Below, piece after piece: positions 2,772 to 60,052 of a stretch of 64,000 nt of DNA. The notes under the pieces were generated by a model that worked only from the letters and a program-made list of their open reading frames with translations, did no database searches and was not told where the DNA came from. This stretch comes from Castor canadensis. Taxonomy: Eukaryota > Chordata > Mammalia > Rodentia > Castoridae. The stretch covers positions 7,319,333 to 7,383,332 of the forward strand of contig NC_133399.1 in the NCBI RefSeq assembly GCF_047511655.1. Reading direction: 5' to 3'. The first letter of the stretch is position 1. Every line of letters starts with the position of its first letter. A program made the position numbers and the translations under genes.

Positions 2772-3311
2772 TATTGTCTTTGGTGTTGTTACTGTCTCTG
2801 TACTGTGTTCAATGAAGTATTTTTTAGCTTGTAATAATAACAATGGTAATATTTAGAATGGAAGGGTGAGCAGAGATGGAAAGCAAGAAGTTAAAGAAAA
2901 GGGAAAAACAAATATACAGATAAGAAGGAGAAAAAAGAACAAGGTATCATACAAGAAAGTTTCAAAGGTATAAACAGGCAGTGTTAGTGTACTGATCGAC
3001 AGTAAGCTGAACAGACATTAGAGAGACAGAGAGATGGCTGAAAATCAAAACTTAAAAAAAATAAAGATAAGAATAAAAATAAAAATAAGTAAATGAAAGA
3101 AATATCTATATATAAAAATAAATTAAAATAAAATGAAAAGTAGAAAATTAAAAAAAAACCCAAAAAACCAAAAAACCTCCAAGTTCAAATGCAATGAAGT
3201 TTCAGTCTTAATAATTTGGGTGTCTGTCTCAGCCTCTAATCCTGGAAATGGTGCCTCAGATGTTGTTCCATAGTTGTCTCATCCAATGGGACGTATAAAG
3301 TAGAACAAATC

Positions 3312-3335
3312 TACACACACACACACACACACACT
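3312..3335. repeat. (CA)n microsatellite inside L1 5'UTR
   Basis: A run of about eleven CA repeats. The equivalent place in copy D (58975-58998) also has a (CA)n run, so it belongs to the L1 family and is not a local feature. Confidence 0.85.
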
Positions 3336-3684
3336 CACAATACCCCATCAAGTGTCCCAAGTTCAAATGCAGTACAGTTTCAGTAAGTTTTTCAGGTGTA
3401 ATTCGGTTGTTCTCTCATCAAAGGTAGGGAGAAAAAGAAAAAAAAAGAGTTTGGAGACAGTTCTGAGAATGGTATCTGTGGCTGTGGCTTGCTTGCCTAC
3501 TGCTGTCAGACTGCTGTTGCGGGTGACGTTATTTATGCAGATCCCTGGGGTGAGCTTAGCATTCACCTGGCCCCACAGGCTTTGTTTACTCAGAGTTCTC
3601 CTGTGCGGGAGCCTCTGCTACAAGCTTTCCCCTTTCCACGCACACTGGGAAAGGTGACACTGCACCCGCGTTCTCAGGCCTGCG

Positions 3685-3985
3685 TGTTTATTTACAGTTC
3701 ATGTGGCAGGTGGGTCTTCCCCCCTCTCCTGTGAAGTTTTCCTCTCACCGCCACTTTCACAAGCTTTCCTGCTCCTGATTACTGGGCGGTGCTGCTGCTC
3801 CTGCCAGCCACCATGTTTATTTACAATTCATGTGAGAAGTGGGTCTTTCCTCCTCTCCTGTGGAGTTTTCCTCCCTCCGCCACTCTCACAAGCTTTCCCA
3901 CTCCTGGTTGCTGGGTGCGTACCCATGCTCCCACCAGAGCCTCTCTGGCCCTCCCAGCTTGTTTATTTACAGTCCTGGGAAGGAT
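3685..3985 (-). repeat. Monomer-like tandem repeats in L1 5'UTR (copy A)
   Basis: On the plus strand, GTTTATTTACA recurs at 3685, 3814 and 3961, spaced 129 and 147 bases. The first two repeats share following blocks (TTCATGTG, GTGGGTCTT, CTCCTGTG, CACAAGCTTTCC). The same arrangement is present in copy D at 59354-59640. Confidence 0.75.
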
Positions 3986-4429
3986 TCCCTTCCCCCAATG
4001 TTTGGCGCTCAGTGCGCCCCACCCTCTTTCCCACGTGCCTTTATTGTTCTTATTGCTTATTAGTCAGTTTCTCTTTTTTCCCCAAGTGGAGGTCAGTCTG
4101 TCCAGGGGGCTAGGCTGCTCTGGCCCAGGCTTGTCTGTGGGAGTACTGCAGTACCACGAAGCTCACCTGGTCCTCGTCTTCCCAAGCCATCTGGGCATGG
4201 GCAACTGACGGCCCGGGGGCCCTCCTGGTTTCTCCGTTTAACATGAAGTGGAGATTCTCTGCGCCAACTGGAGGTGTGGAGAGGTCAAAGTTATGCCTCT
4301 TCTCAGTGATTATGCCTGCAAAATGTGTCTCCAGTGTCTCTCTAAGATTTCACTATAGGAGGCTCGCTTTCTGCTTCCTCCCTCTAGCTGCCATCTTGGA
4401 ATCCTCTCCTAATAATTTTTTTAAGAAAA

Positions 4430-15779: not shown

Positions 15780-15990
15780 GATTATTTAAATGTTATGATC
15801 AAAGAATTTACAGGAAGCTCAAAAAATAAATTCACAAACAATCAGCATACAAATGAAATAAATGAGAAAATAACCTGACAGAATTTTTTTTCAAATGAGA
15901 ATTCCAAAGTGCTGAAAATCACATACAGAAATGCTCATTGTCTCTGGCCATAAAGAAATGCATATAAAAGCCACATCAAGATTCCACCAC
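15780..15990 (+). mobile_element. Old L1 fragment, left part of the host of copy B
   Basis: From about 15870 it reads like a diverged ORF2 3' portion (ATGCTCATTGTCTCTGGCCATAAAGAAATGCA). It resumes after copy B at 22045, so the young L1 inserted into this older one in the same orientation. The left boundary is approximate. Confidence 0.7.
15978..15990 (+). repeat. Target-site duplication, left copy (L1 copy B)
   Basis: AAGATTCCACCAC immediately precedes the L1 5' end and is repeated exactly at 22032-22044 after the poly(A). This is the signature of target-primed reverse transcription. Confidence 0.95.
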
Positions 15991-16232
15991 GGAGAATTCC
16001 AAGATGGCGGCTAGAAGTAGGAAGCAGAAAGCGACCCTCCTATAGTGAAAACTTGGAGAGACGCTGGAGACACACTTTGCAGACATAATCACTGAGAAAA
16101 GGCACAACTTTGACTCCTCCACATCTCCAGCCGGCGCAGAGAATCTCCACTTCACGTTAAACGGAGAACCGAGGAGGGCCCCCGGGGCCGCCAGTGGCCG
16201 GCGCCCATACGGCATGGGAAGACGCGGACCAG
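15991..16232 (+). promoter_or_regulatory. L1 5' end and first 5'UTR exon with YY1-like motif
   Basis: The first 242 bases up to the inferred splice junction. Copy D has exactly 242 bases for the same part (60076-59835) and copy A about 243. CCAAGATGGCGGC at 15999-16011 matches the YY1 recognition core (AAGATGGCGGC), and human L1 has a YY1 site at a similar distance from its 5' end. Transcription-start positioning by YY1 is inferred from that parallel. Confidence 0.7.
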
Positions 16233-16236
16233 CTTA
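16229..16236 (+). other. Exon-exon junction scar in L1 5'UTR
   Basis: CCAG|CTTA. In copy A, CCAG is followed by GTGAGC and an 1160-base segment that ends in TTCAG before CTTACTGTCGAT. In copy D the segment is 1128 bases. Copy B joins the two flanks without an inserted or missing base. Confidence 0.88.
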
Positions 16237-16464
16237 CTGTCGATTAGTACACTAACACTCCCTGTTTATACCTTTGAAACTCTCTTGTCTGATACCTTGT
16301 TCTGCTTTCTCCCTCTTGTCTGTATATTTGTTTTCCCCTTCTCTTTAACTTCTTGCTTTCCATCTCAGCTCACTCTTCCATTCTCAATATTACCATTGTT
16401 ATTATTACAAGCTAGAAAATACTTAATTACACACAGTACAGGGACAGTAACAACACCAAGGACA

Positions 16465-17666
16465 ATGACAGGAAGACAGAAAAAACAAGGAAACCAGTTT
16501 CCCCACAGCAAAAAATTAGTACAGGAACCAGAGGGGAATGAAGAGAACAGAAACTCAGAGCCAGACTCCAATAAAATGAAGATAAACTATGCCAAAGGAC
16601 CCAATGAAGCCTACAAGAATAATTTAAAAGAAGACATACTACAAGTACTCAATGAGAATTTTATAGAGATGATACTGGATAGGGTCAACCAAAATGTACA
16701 GGAGACACTCAAGAAATTCCAAGACAATAAAAATAGAGAATTTGAAAAAGCAAAAGAAGAAATAAAGGAAACCATAGAAGCACTGTATAAACACCAAAGT
16801 GAAAGAGAGAACACAATGAATAAATGGATAAATGAACTCAGGACAAAAATAGACAACAATAAAGAAGAAAACAGCCAGGATATGGAAAACCTCAGAAAAA
16901 AGAACAAAACAGAACTGCAAAACAAAACGGAAGGCCAATCCAGCAGAATAGAACAAACAGAAGACAGAATCTCAGAACTTGAAGATGAAATGGTAATTAA
17001 AGGAAAAACTGAAGAACTATTAATTAAACAACTCAAGACCTGTGAAAAGAAAATGCAAGAACTCACCGACTCCATCAAAAGACCAAACTTGAGAATCATG
17101 GGCATCAAAGAAGGAGAAGAGGTGCAAGCGAAGGGAATGCGTAATATATTCAACAAAATAATAACGGAAATTTCCCAAATCTAGAGAAAGATATTCCCAT
17201 ACAAATGCAAGAGGCCTCCAGGACACCAAACAGACCAGATCAAAATAGAACTACTCCATGACATATCATCATTAAAACAACAAGTTCAGAAACTAAGGAA
17301 AGAATATTGAAGGCTGCAAGAGAGAAAAAACAAGTAACATACAAAGGTAAACCCATCAAAATCACAGCAGACTTCTCAACAGAAACATTAAAAGCAAGAA
17401 GAGCGTGGGGTGAGATCTTCCGGGCACTGAATGAAAATAACTTCAACCCCAGGATACTCTACCCAACAAAGCTATCATTCAAAATAGATGGAGCAATAAA
17501 AGTCTTCCATGATAAGCAGAAACTAAAACAATATGTGACCACAAAGCCACCATTACAAAAGATTCTGCAAGGGATCCTGCACACAGAAAGTGACACCCAA
17601 CTTAACCATGAAAAGGCAGGCAGCACCAAACCACAGGATAAGAAAAAGCAAGACAGTAGAGAGTAA
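16465..17666 (+). pseudogene. L1 ORF1 (copy B), frameshifted and with a stop
   Basis: L1 ORF1 RNA-binding protein, normally about 400 residues in this family as judged from copy D. The ATG at 16465 gives MTGRQKKQG; the upstream frame is open to 16285 but that extension is 5'UTR. The coiled coil covers most of the first half. An A missing near 17168-17170 (GGAAATTTCCC against GGAAAATTTCCC in D) ends the frame at 17184. Downstream, CCA-CGA has become CCA-TGA at 17259-17261, a second stop consistent with CpG decay. The C-terminal RNA-binding part (ARRAWGEIFRALNENNFNPR) is open at 17307-17666. Confidence 0.9.
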
Positions 17667-17716
17667 CATCAAGTTAGGTACACACAATCAAACCTTCAAA
17701 CAACTAAGATAACTAA

Positions 17717-20700
17717 ATGGCAGGAATCACCACATACCTATCAGTACTAACACTTAATGTTAATGGACTTAATTCACCCATCAAAAGACACCGTTTGACA
17801 AAATGGATTAAAAAAGAAGATCCAACAATTTGTTGCTTACAGGAGACTCATCTCACCGACAGAAATAAGCATATGCTTAGGATGAAAGGCTGGAAGAAGA
17901 TTTACCAAGCCAATGGCCCCCGAAAACAAGCAGGAGTAGCAATACTTATCTCTGACAAAGTAGACTTCAAACCTACATTGATCAAACGAGATAAAGAAGG
18001 ACATTCCATACTAATAAAAGGGGAAATAGACCAAAAGGAAATAATAATCATCAATCTGTACGCACCCAATGTCAACGCACCCAATTTCATCAAACATACC
18101 CTGAAAGACCGAAAAGCATATATAAACGCCAATACAGTGGTTGTGGGAGACTTTAACACTCCATTATCATCAATAGATAGGTCATCCAAACAAAAACTCA
18201 ATAAAGAAATCCAAGATCTAAAATATGCAATAGACCAAGTGGACCTAGTAGATGTCTACAGAACATTTCATCCAACCTCTACACAATATACATTCTTCTC
18301 AGCAGCCCATGGAACCTTCTCCAAAATAGATCATATCCTAGGGCACAAAGCAAGCCTCAGCAAATATAAGAAAATAGAAATAATACCATGCATACCATCT
18401 GACCACAATGCAGTAAAAGTAGAAGTCAACAACAAAAGTAAAGACAAAAAACATGCAAACAGCTGGAAACTAAATAACTCGTTACTTAATGAAGAATGGA
18501 TCATCGATGCAATAAAAGAGGAAATTAAAAAGTTCCTAGAAGTCAATGAAAATGAAAACACAACCTACCGGAACCTATGGGACACAGCTAAGGCAGTCTT
18601 GAGAGGAAAGTTTATAGCCATGAGTGCATATATTAAAAAGATTGAAAGATCCCAAATCAATGACCTAATGATACATCTCAAACTCCTAGAAAAAGAAGAA
18701 CAAGCAAATCCCAAAACAAATAGAAGGAGAGAAATAATAAAAATAAGAGCTGAAATCAACGAAATAGAAACCAAAAAAAACATACAAAGAATTAATGAAA
18801 CAAAAAGTTGGTTCTTTGAAAAAATAAACAAGATCGATAGACCCCTGGCAAACCTGACTAAAATGAGGAGAGAAAAAACCCAAATTGGTAGAATCAGGAA
18901 TGCAAAAGGGGAGATAACAACAAACACCATGGAAGTCCAGGAAATCATCAGAGACTACTTCGAGAACCTATATTCAAATAAATTTGAAAATCTAAAAGAA
19001 ATGGACAGATTTCTAGATACATATGATCATCCAAAACTGAACCAAGAGGAAATTAATCACCTGAATACACCTATAACACAAAATGAAATTGAAGCAGCAA
19101 TCAAGAGTCTCCCCAAAAAGAAAAGTCCAGGACCTGATGGATTCTCTGCTGAATTCTATCAGACCTTTAAAGAAGAACTGATACCAACCCTCCTTAAACT
19201 GTTCCATGAAATAGAAAGGGAAGGAAAACTGCCAAACACATTTTATGAAGCCACTATTACACTTATCCCAAAACCAGGCAAAGACACCTCCAAAAAGGAG
19301 TACTATAGGCCAATCTCCTTAATGAACATTGATGCAAAAATCCTCAACAAAATAATGGCAAACCGAATTCAACAACACATCAAAAAGATTATTCAGCACG
19401 ACCAGGTAGGCTTCATCCCAGGGATGCAGGGGTGGTTCAACATACGAAAATCAATAAACGTAATAAACCACATTAACAGAAACAAAGACAAAAGCCACTT
19501 GATCATCTCAATAGATGCAGAAAAAGCCTTTGATAAGATCCAACATCATTTCATGATAAAAGCTCTAAGAAAACTAGGAATAGAAGGAAAGTTCCTCAAC
19601 ATTATAAAAGCTATATATGACAAACCTACAGCCAGCATTATACTTAACGGAGAAAAATTAAAACCATTCCCTCTAAAATCAGGAACCAGACAAGGATGCC
19701 CACTATCTCCACTCCTATTCAACATAGTACTGGAATTCCTAGCCAGAGCAATTAGGCAAGAAGAAGGAATAAAAGGAATACAAATAGGTAAAGAAACTGT
19801 CAAAATATCCCTATTTGCAGACGACATGATCCTATACCTTAAAGACCCAAAAAACTCTACTCAGAAGCTTCTAGACATCATCAATAGCTATAGCAAGGTA
19901 GCAGGATATAAAATCAACATAGAAAAATCATTAGCATTTCTATACACTAACAATGAGCAAACGGAAAAAGAATGTATGAAAACAATTCCATTTACAATAG
20001 CCTCAAAAAAATCAAATACCTAGGTGTCAACCTAACAAAAGACGTGAAAGACCTCTACAAGGAAAACTATACACTTCTGAAGAAAGAGATTGAGGAAGAC
20101 TATAGAAAGTGGAGAGATCTCCCATGCTCATGGATTGGTAGAATCAACATAGTAAAAATGTCTATACTCCCAAAAGTAATCTACATGTTTAATGCAATTC
20201 CCATCAAAATTCCAATGACATTCATCAAAGAGATTGAAAAATCTACTGTTAAATTTATATGGAAACACAAGAGGCCACGAATAGCCAAGGCAATACTCAG
20301 TCAAAAGAACAATGCAGGAGGTATCACAATACCTGACTTCAAACTATATTACAAAGCAATAACAATAAAAACAGCATGGTACTGGCACAAAAACAGACAT
20401 GAAGACCAGTGGAACAGAATAGAGGATCCAGATATGAAGCCACACAACTATGAGCAACTTATCTTTGACAAAGGAGCTAAAAATATACGATGGAGAAATA
20501 GCAGCCTCTTCAACAAAAACTGCTGGGAAAACTGGTTAGCAGTCTGCAAAAAACTGAAACTAGATCCATGTATATCACCCTATACCAAGATTAACTCAAA
20601 ATGGATCAAGGATCTTAATATCAGACCCCAAACTCTTAAGTTGATACAAGAAAGAGTAGGAAATACTCTGGAGTTAGTAGGTATAGGTAAGAACTTTCTC

Positions 20701-21533
20701 AATGAAACCCCAGCAGCACAGCAACTAAGAGATAGCATAGATAAATGGGACCTCATAAAACTAAAAAGCTTCTGTTCATCAAAAGAAATGGTCTCTAAAC
20801 TGAAGAGAACACCCACAGAGTGGGAGAAAATATTTGCCAATTATACATCAGACAAAGGACTGATAACCAGAATATACAGGGAACTTAAAAAACTAAATTC
20901 TCCCAAAACTAATGAACCAATAAAGAAATGGGCATGTGAACTAAACAGAACTTTCTCAAAAGAAGAAATTCAAATGGCCAGAAAACACATGAAAAAATGC
21001 TCACCATCTCTAGCAATAAAGGAAATGCAAATTAAAACCACACTAAGATTCCACCTCACCCCTGTTAGAATAGCCATCATCAGCAACACCACCAACAACA
21101 GGTGTTGGCGAGGATGCGGGGAAAAAGGAACCCTCTTACACTGTTGGTGGGAATGTAGACTAGTACAACCACTCTGGAAAAAAATTTGGAGGCTACTTAA
21201 AAAGCTGGACATCGATCTACCATTTGATCCAGCAATACCACTCTTGGGGATATACCCAAAAGACTGTTACTCCAGAGGCACCTGCACATCCATGTTTATT
21301 GCGGCACTATTCACAATAGCCAAGTTATGGAAACAGCCAAGATGCCTCACCACCGACGAATGGATTAAGAAAATGTGGTATCTATACACAATGGAATTTT
21401 AGGCAGCCAAGAAGAAGAACGAAATGTTATCATTCGCTGGTAAATGGATGGAATTGGAGAACATCATTCTGAGTGAGGTTAGCCTGGCTCAAAAGACCAA
21501 AAATCGTATGTTCTCCCTCATATGTGGACAGTA
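17717..21533 (+). pseudogene. L1 ORF2 (copy B): endonuclease-reverse transcriptase, broken
   Basis: The replication enzyme of L1, nicking DNA and reverse-transcribing L1 RNA at the target. The endonuclease has N14 (LTLNVNGLN), E43 (CLQETHLT), [13 protein letters not shown] and SDHNAV. The Z region and RT follow, with [20 protein letters not shown] and FADD at residues 700-703 (19814-19825). A C-terminal zinc knuckle CX3CX7HX4C ([18 protein letters not shown]) lies near 21104-21157. Two lesions are visible: one A lost from an A-run at 20005-20011 shifts the frame (first part ends 20023, second part open 19972-21402), and TAG at 21400-21402 replaces a tyrosine codon about 43 codons before the normal end. 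Every catalytic motif otherwise reads intact. Confidence 0.93.
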
Positions 21534-22031
21534 GATCAAGGGCAAACACAACAAGGGGACTGGACAATGAGCACATGATAAAAGCTAGAGCACACAAGGG
21601 AGGGGTGAAGATAGGTAAGACACCTAAAAAACTAGCTAGCATCTGTTGCCCTTAATGCAGAGAAACTAAAGCAGATACCTTAAAGCAACTGAGGCCAATA
21701 GGAAAAGGGGACCAGGAACTAGAGAAAAGGTTAGATTAAAAAGAATTAACCTAGAAGGTAACACCCACGCACAGGAAATCAATGTGAGTCAATGCCCTGT
21801 ATAGCTATCCTTACCTCAACCAGCAAAACCCCTTGTTCCTTGCTATTATTGCTTATACTCTCTCTACAACAAAATTAGAAATAAGGGCAAAATAGTTTCT
21901 GCTGGGTATTGAGGGGGGGAGCGGGAGGGGGTGGAGTGGGTGGTAAGGGAGGGGGTGGGGGCAGGGGGGAGAAATGAACCAAGCCTTGTATGCACATATG
22001 AATAATAAAAGAAAAATGAAAAAAAAAAAAA
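21534..22031 (+). other. L1 3'UTR with G-rich tract and poly(A) signal
   Basis: The 3'UTR contains several runs of three or more G at about 21910-21970, then TGTATGCACATATGAATAATAAAAG with AATAAA at 22004-22009, and an A-rich tail. The same tract appears as a C-rich block in copies C (43375-43440) and D (53260-53325). Several such G-runs could form a G-quadruplex, a feature known in 3'UTRs of other mammalian L1s. Confidence 0.85.
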
Positions 22032-22044
22032 AAGATTCCACCAC
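22032..22044 (+). repeat. Target-site duplication, right copy (L1 copy B)
   Basis: An exact repeat of 15978-15990. The adjacent poly(A) makes the 5' boundary ambiguous by a few A residues. Confidence 0.95.
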
Positions 22045-58474: not shown

Positions 58475-58974
58475 TGTCTTTGGTGTTGTTACTGTCCCTG
58501 TACTGTGTGCAATTAAGTATTTTCTAGCTTGTAATAATAACAATGGTAATATTTAGAATGGAAGGGTGAGCTGAGATGGAAAGCAAGAAGTTAAAGAAAA
58601 GGGGAAAACAAATACACAAACAAGAGGGAGAAAGCAGAACAAGGTTTCAGATAAGAAAGTTTCAAAGGTATAAACAGGGAGCGTTAGTGTACTAATCAAC
58701 AGTAAGCTGAACAGGCATTAGAGAGACAGAGAGAGGATTGAAAATCAAAGATCAAAAAAATAAGAAATAAATACATGAAATAAATATATATAAAAATGAA
58801 TTAAAATAAAATGGAAAATAGAAAATTAAAAAAAAAACTCCAAGTTTATATGCAATGCAGTTTCAGTGTTAATAATTTGGGTGTCCGTCTCAGTCTACAG
58901 TCCTGGAGATGGTGCCTCAGATGTTGTTCTGTAGTTGTCTCATCAAAGAGTACACATAAAGTAGAACAAAACTA

Positions 58975-58998
58975 CACACACACACACACACACACACA
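58975..58998. repeat. (CA)n microsatellite inside L1 5'UTR
   Basis: A CA run of about twelve units with the same flanks as the copy A tract at 3312-3335. Confidence 0.9.
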
Positions 58999-59353
58999 TA
59001 CACACAGCCCCACCAAGTGTCCCAAGTTCAAATGCAATACAGTTTCAGTAAGTTTTCCGGCTTGCAGGTGTAATTTGGTTGTTCTCTCATCAAAGGTAGG
59101 GAGAAAAAGAAAAAAAAGCATCTGGAGACAGTTCTGAGAGTGGTATCTGCAACTGTGGCTTGCCTGCCTGCTGCTGTCAGTCTGCTGTAGCTGGTGGCAT
59201 TATTTATGCAGATCTCTGGGGTGAACTTAGCACTCACCTGCTCCCACAGGCTTTGTTTGTTCAGAGTTCTCCTGTGCGGGAGCCTCTGCTACAAGCTTTC
59301 CACTTTCCAAGCACTGGGAAAAGTGACACTGCACCTGCATTGTCAGGCCCACG

Positions 59354-59640
59354 TGTTTATTTACAGTTCATGTGGGAGGTGGGTCTTCTCCCCTCTCCTG
59401 TGCCATTTTCCTCCCACCGCCACTTTCACAAGCTTTCCTGCTCCTGATTACTGGGCAGTGCTGCTGCTCCTGCTGGCTGCCATGTTTGTTTACAGCTCAT
59501 GTGGGAAGTGGGTCTTCCCTCTTCTCCTGTGGAGTTTTCCTCCCTCCGCCACTCTCACAAGCTTTCCCACTCATGATTGTTGGGCGTGTTCCCCACTCCC
59601 GCCAGAGGCTCTCCTGCCCTCCCGGCTTGTTTATTTACAG
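59354..59640 (-). repeat. Monomer-like tandem repeats in L1 5'UTR (copy D)
   Basis: On plus, GTTTATTTACAG (59354), GTTTGTTTACAG (59484) and GTTTATTTACAG (59629) head similar blocks, spacing 130 and 145 bases. The spacing is almost the same as in copy A (129, 147). The first two blocks share CTCATGTGGGA-type text, GTGGGTCTTC, CTCCTGTG and CACAAGCTTTCC. Confidence 0.75.
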
Positions 59641-60052
59641 TCCTGGGAAGGGTTCCCTTCCCCCAATCTTCAGTGCTCAGGGCGCCCCACCCTCTTTCCA
59701 GTGTGTCTTAATTGTTCTTATTGCTTATTACTCAGTTTCTCTTTTTTTCCCAGGTTGGAGGTCAGTCTGTCCAGGGGCTATGCTGCTCTGGCCCAGGCTT
59801 GTCTGTGGGAGTACTGCGGTACCGCAAAGCTCACCTTGTCTGCGTCTTCCCAAGCCATCTGTGTGCTGGCCACTGGCAGCCCAGGGGCCCTCCTCGTTTC
59901 TCCATTTAACGTGAGGTGGAGATTCTCTAGGCCAGCTGGAGATGTGGAGGGGTCAAAGTTATGCCTTTTCTCAGTGATTATGCCTGCAAAGTGTGTCTCC
60001 AGTGTCTCTCCAAGATTTTACTATTGAAGGCTTGCTTTCTGCTTCCTACCTC

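Follow-up and report, generated by a model that had tools for sequence, protein, structure and literature searches.

Three copies of one L1 family

In the window, the whole 64,000-nucleotide stretch of Castor canadensis DNA analysed here, three copies of one L1 family extend as far as the 5'UTR; they are called A, B and D (Table 1). The preliminary description had given A and D an extra segment of 1160 and 1128 nt, running from GTGAGC to TTCAG, and had copy B join the flanks of this segment to the base; lengths, coordinates and join all proved exact. It had also made the exon part before the join equal in B and D, at 242 nt, which is off by 1 nt: counted from the shared anchor ATTCCAAGATGG, this part measures 237 nt in B and 236 nt in A and D. 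As proposed, copy B is a true insertion with the element boundaries claimed, its 13-bp target-site duplications (TSDs) enclosing the element and its poly(A), and it lies at an endonuclease-like integration site (CATC/AAGA).

Copy B is a LINE-1, with an AP-type endonuclease (PF03372) and a reverse transcriptase (PF00078) in the first open piece of its ORF2 (Pfam, 17717-20020); Pfam matched neither the ORF1 piece nor the second piece of ORF2. ORF1 starts with an ATG at 16465 and is open to 17184, with an early stop. The ORF1 frame is stop-free over 16114-17184, a stretch that begins inside exon 1 and spans the join, and its first ATG is the one at 16465; this open frame across the join is probably due to chance. 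Exon 1 contains CAAGATGGCGGC, which we take to be a YY1-like site.

Table 1. Features of the three L1 copies, in window coordinates
Feature	Position	Strand	Details
Copy A	left end of window	minus	intron-bearing
Copy A, retained 5'UTR intron	3007-4166	minus	1160 nt; CAG/GTGAGC ... TTCAG/CTTACT
Copy B, 5' TSD	15978-15990	+	13 bp; AAGATTCCACCAC
Copy B, element	15991-22031	+	intron-less, bounded by TSDs
Copy B, leader exon 1	15991-16232	+	242 nt; contains CAAGATGGCGGC; last letters GACCAG
Copy B, splice join	16232/16233	+	GACCAG/CTTACT
Copy B, exon 2	16233-22031	+	remaining 5'UTR, ORF1, ORF2 pieces, 3'UTR and poly(A)
Copy B, ORF2	17717-20023 and 19957-21402	+	two open pieces in different frames
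Copy B, 3' TSD	22032-22044	+	13 bp; AAGATTCCACCAC
Copy D	right end of window	minus	intron-bearing
Copy D, retained 5'UTR intron	58707-59834	minus	1128 nt; AAG/GTGAGC ... TTCAG/CTTACT
Copy D, second donor	59230-59240	minus	CAG/GTGAGTGC; coordinates counted by hand

Spliced copies across the genome

Exact sequence patterns were counted over the 2.81-Gb assembly that holds the window. Anchored at the acceptor, a 30-base pattern across the join occurs in 220 copies and its reversed control in 0, which excludes chance; the intron end precedes the acceptor in 4317 copies, so that 4.8% are spliced. The genome-wide search for the join that the preliminary description had called for, here anchored at the donor, finds the exon end followed by G (as in the intron) in 5210 copies, by a base other than G in 462 and by CTTA in 246. 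The donor-anchored spliced share is 246/5456, or 4.5%; copies were classed by the next base alone, G as unspliced and A or T as a mutated donor, and the G rule misses rare splices from a donor further inside. All 30 unspliced loci fetched carry at least part of exon 1. Exon ends of the AAG type were counted by hand in 27/100 listed spliced and 20/100 listed unspliced copies (Fisher p = 0.32).

Among the first 100 listed exon 1 ends that are not followed by G, counted by hand, the next base is C in 52 and A or T in 48. The latter are most simply read as point-mutated donors, and one such was seen (L032, GACCAG/ATGAGC). Of the 52 C-type ends, 51 were checked and at least 49 share the same join, some with later mutations in exon 2: 28 are in the join-pattern list, 18 were found among 20 fetched and three are in the donor-anchored CTTA list. 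The preliminary description had held that related copies with shifted boundaries would speak against splicing; the start of exon 2 is constant in these copies. The join likewise stays in place whatever the length of the intron, which is 937-1172 nt in the 29 unspliced copies measured. In B and A the join is flanked by CAG on either side, so that its position is ambiguous by up to 3 nt; the AAG exon end of D and of many other copies leaves less ambiguity. To the base, the join matches the removal of a GT-AG segment from an L1 RNA.

The two C-type ends that join elsewhere are L073 and L078. In L073 (G000:C1:118625773-118625951), the end of exon 1 is joined to CTAGAAAATAC, 3' of the usual acceptor, which is either the use of another AG acceptor or a join at the 5-bp homology ACAAG. 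L078 and L108 (G000:C1:195312340-195312800) pass from the donor into what appears by eye to be an old antisense L1, starting CTTTTTAAG, and possibly stem from a chimeric spliced RNA.

The acceptor tract CTCTCTGTCTCTCTAATGTCTGTTCAG looks good by eye; a crude scan for acceptors, which required at least 75% pyrimidine and no AG close by, missed the true acceptor and picked two others. Among tandem repeats in the intron of D, an AC run alone passed. A younger unspliced sublineage (L009, L013, L015, L017, L018, L022-L025, L035, L037) has a shorter intron of 979-1008 nt. About 155 nt, corresponding to 283-438 of the D intron, are missing in its nine resolved members, and CTATTG replaces CTAATG in nine of the ten copies with a visible acceptor.

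A second donor inside the intron

A scan of three unspliced copies over exon 1, the intron and 1500 nt beyond (the first 2.7-2.9 kb) found the strong donor motif MAG/GTRAG at two sites only, the exon end and a position about 440-570 nt into the intron; copy B has no MAGGTRAG from end to end. Both strong donors are in use, the second by at least two copies and with the same acceptor. In L066 (G000:C2:157763928-157763957), the first donor is present and unspliced and the join runs from the second donor to the usual acceptor; this copy has a 13-bp TSD of its own. L106 (G000:C7:2769950-2770484) carries intron text from about 90 nt in to the second donor and then the same join with one letter changed; the sequence fetched does not extend to its first donor. 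The second donor of D is the counterpart of the one used in both. An exact search for the inner-donor join gave one match (L066), and L106, with its changed letter, came from the search for trapped host exons described below; two is thus a minimum count. That two predicted donors are both used is what splicing predicts and deletion does not.

L066 has about 48 nt of extra sequence between the usual 3' end and its TSD, perhaps a 3' transduction. A search for host exons trapped onto the L1 acceptor, with a pattern in which the bases normally found upstream were disallowed, gave 34 matches. No trapped exon was found in the three odd-looking matches fetched: two are normal joins whose exon end is mutated, and the third, L106, uses the inner donor. 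The remaining 31 were assessed from their six upstream letters only.

Integration by the L1 machinery

The 3' ends of 16 other spliced copies were fetched and 15 were recognisable, the exception being L040. TSDs of at least 10 nt flank 8 of these 15 copies, compared with 1 of 225 cross-pairings of their flanks; at 8 nt, the figures are 10/15 and 13/225. The remaining seven of the 15 lack a TSD of at least 10 nt, theirs being shorter or absent. The spliced copies were thus integrated by the L1 machinery.

Independent origins

The relatedness of spliced and unspliced copies was determined from a stretch of about 1494 nt that lies 3' of the join and does not include it. Both trees are rooted at the midpoint without an outgroup, and their bootstraps are not fully settled. 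In the 68-copy tree (38 spliced, 30 unspliced), the spliced state changes 18 times, with at least eight changes forced by well-supported branches, and a single spliced clade is absent (0% of bootstrap trees). The labels are slightly more clustered than shuffled ones, which need 22.3-22.4 changes on average; 18-23 of 500 shuffles came out this low. The 56-copy tree (28 spliced, 28 unspliced) leaves out L047 and L048 as duplicates of L046, L027 and L036 for their long branches, and L001-L008, which had been picked for their likeness to B (L001 is copy B itself). It has 17 changes, at least nine of them forced by well-supported branches, and 125-126 of 500 shuffles are as low (mean 18.8-18.9). 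A single spliced clade, which the preliminary description had named as evidence against splicing, is rejected here (AU p = 2e-58), and the sampled spliced copies have independent origins and do not form one lineage. Their near-random scatter in this sample of 28 suggests that spliced copies rarely become sources. L046, L047 and L048 (G000:C1 113.6-114.6 Mb) have flanks that are 98-100% identical; they go back to one spliced insertion that segmental duplication has multiplied.

The spliced copies have intron-bearing contemporaries. The preliminary description had counted a lack of intron-bearing sources active at the same time against its reading; unspliced copies that match even the youngest spliced ones in age are found, among them the pair L018 and L024, which are 99.8% identical over 1500 nt. 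Median identity to L018 is 98.5% in spliced (n = 28) and 98.0% in unspliced copies (n = 27; p = 0.15), and this like divergence indicates that splicing went on alongside transposition. The divergences of exon 1 and exon 2 agree in spliced copies (Spearman 0.88, n = 33, with L001-L008, L047 and L048 included), as expected from one RNA spliced in cis; the value for unspliced copies is 0.91 (n = 26). Among spliced copies, the five that differ most from L018 (L041, L046-L048 and L062; 93.5-94.9% identity) have AAG at the end of exon 1, and the others fetched have CAG.

Weighing the explanations

One ancestral deletion, or one spliced insertion, might have founded an intron-less subfamily that was then amplified. 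The 40 copies scored are indeed spliced-type and 97-98% like B, which follows from the design of a query that spans the join, and three old spliced copies are nearly identical; these are the segmental duplication L046-L048. Given the rejected clade and the forced changes in the 56-copy tree, which refutes a single founder for the sampled copies as a whole, we lend this account hardly any credence; small spliced-only sublineages are possible. An intron-less ancestor into which a 1-kb block was inserted later is just as hard to believe. L1 5'UTRs gain sequence, spliced copies are also among the most diverged, and the root is a midpoint root only; but some of the most diverged copies in the sample bear the intron (L038, L032, L010 and L029, at 91.4%, 94.1%, 94.6% and 94.7% to L018), spliced copies are scattered among intron-bearing ones in both trees, and a later block would leave the second donor unexplained. 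On these trees, which lack an outgroup, ancestral absence of the intron is disfavoured.

Recurrent deletion of DNA between the short repeats CAG...CAG, or template jumping of the reverse transcriptase between them, would fit the CAG on both sides of the segment and the 5-bp ACAAG homology at the displaced join of L073. We rejected it as highly improbable because the listed C-type joins fall at the same base in 49 of 52 cases, AAG-type ends join there too, and the segment ends in GT...AG and has a second GT donor that is used with the same acceptor. A further reading accepts splicing and makes the intron a working part of the element: most RNA would be spliced for translation and an unspliced minority would serve as the genome, in a retrovirus-like division of labour. 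It draws on the upstream ATGs, four of five or six of which lie inside the intron in four young unspliced copies, and would make the 4.5% of spliced copies a leakage of the message form into insertion. We regard this reading as quite unlikely, if somewhat less so than the others.

Proposed mechanism

One GT-AG segment has been lost repeatedly and independently at one place, and the resulting copies were inserted by the L1 machinery. The scattered tree, the constant join and the TSDs support the earlier proposal that the 5'UTR of this L1 has a functional intron and that spliced copies are retrotransposed. We consider it very probable that the family has a real but inefficiently spliced 5'UTR intron and forms SpIREs, that is, retrotransposed spliced L1 RNAs, recurrently and mostly as dead ends. 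The GT-AG intron of about 0.94-1.17 kb lies wholly within the 5'UTR, and a minority of L1 RNAs may be spliced in the nucleus. Because the intron stops short of the ORF1 ATG, splicing does not touch the protein-coding sequence, and the spliced RNA could be packaged in cis by its own unchanged ORF proteins. Ordinary target-primed reverse transcription would then insert it, giving intron-less copies like B, and such insertions have arisen independently and many times in the part of the family's history that was sampled.

Spliced copies would mostly be dead ends while the intron-bearing lineage persists, probably because most of the CpG-rich, promoter-like leader is intron. Exon 1 and intron together contain 39-42 CpGs in the four young unspliced copies; 26-29 of these fall within the intron, whose first 480 nt have 59% GC. 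We infer that promoter strength is reduced in the spliced product.

Relation to known SpIREs and implications

The kind is known from human L1, and the present family is a new and more frequent instance in another genome. Larson et al. 2018 (PMC5860796) describe three human SpIREs that arise within the 5'UTR, SpIRE97/622, 97/790 and 97/853, of which the first is the commonest 5'UTR class (116/6609, about 1.8%, counted by BLAT). As described there, the human elements share with the present L1 splicing within the 5'UTR, L1 insertion hallmarks, untouched ORFs, recurrence (in several subfamilies in human) and a small share among full-length copies. The comparison is between different 5'UTRs in different genomes and implies no homology of splice sites. 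The intron is about 0.94-1.17 kb here and about 0.52-0.76 kb in human, as taken from the positions in that paper, and a single donor-acceptor pair predominates here, with rare use of a second donor, whereas the human classes pair one common donor with several acceptors. The spliced share is 4.5% (246/5456, exact patterns) here against 1.8% by BLAT for human SpIRE97/622, a significant difference across these two counting methods (Fisher odds ratio 2.6). Human SpIRE97/976, of the 5'UTR/ORF1 type, is also a retrotransposed spliced L1 RNA but loses the ORF1 start (PMC5860796), whereas the acceptor here lies upstream of the ORF1 ATG (16465 in B).

As described in PMC13174262, the RAP1GDS1 L1PA2 SpIRE is a spliced copy that became a source by capturing a host promoter; unlike that case, no spliced-only family was seen in the present sample. 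Mouse L1 is reported to have splice sites on both strands with exonization, a related but not identical phenomenon (PMC2176070). Among the top matches in the open-licence literature, we found no non-primate 5'UTR SpIRE.

About 250 natural splice products beside more than 5000 unspliced sisters would thus form a fossil read-out of splicing over the history of the family, at about 4-5%; in the sample, spliced and unspliced copies showed no difference in age. The donor of human L1 is located in a RUNX3 site needed for promoter strength, and why L1 keeps splice sites that cost it copies is a question raised by the human work (PMC5860796). The present family may provide a second case for asking whether donors persist for a promoter role at the DNA level.
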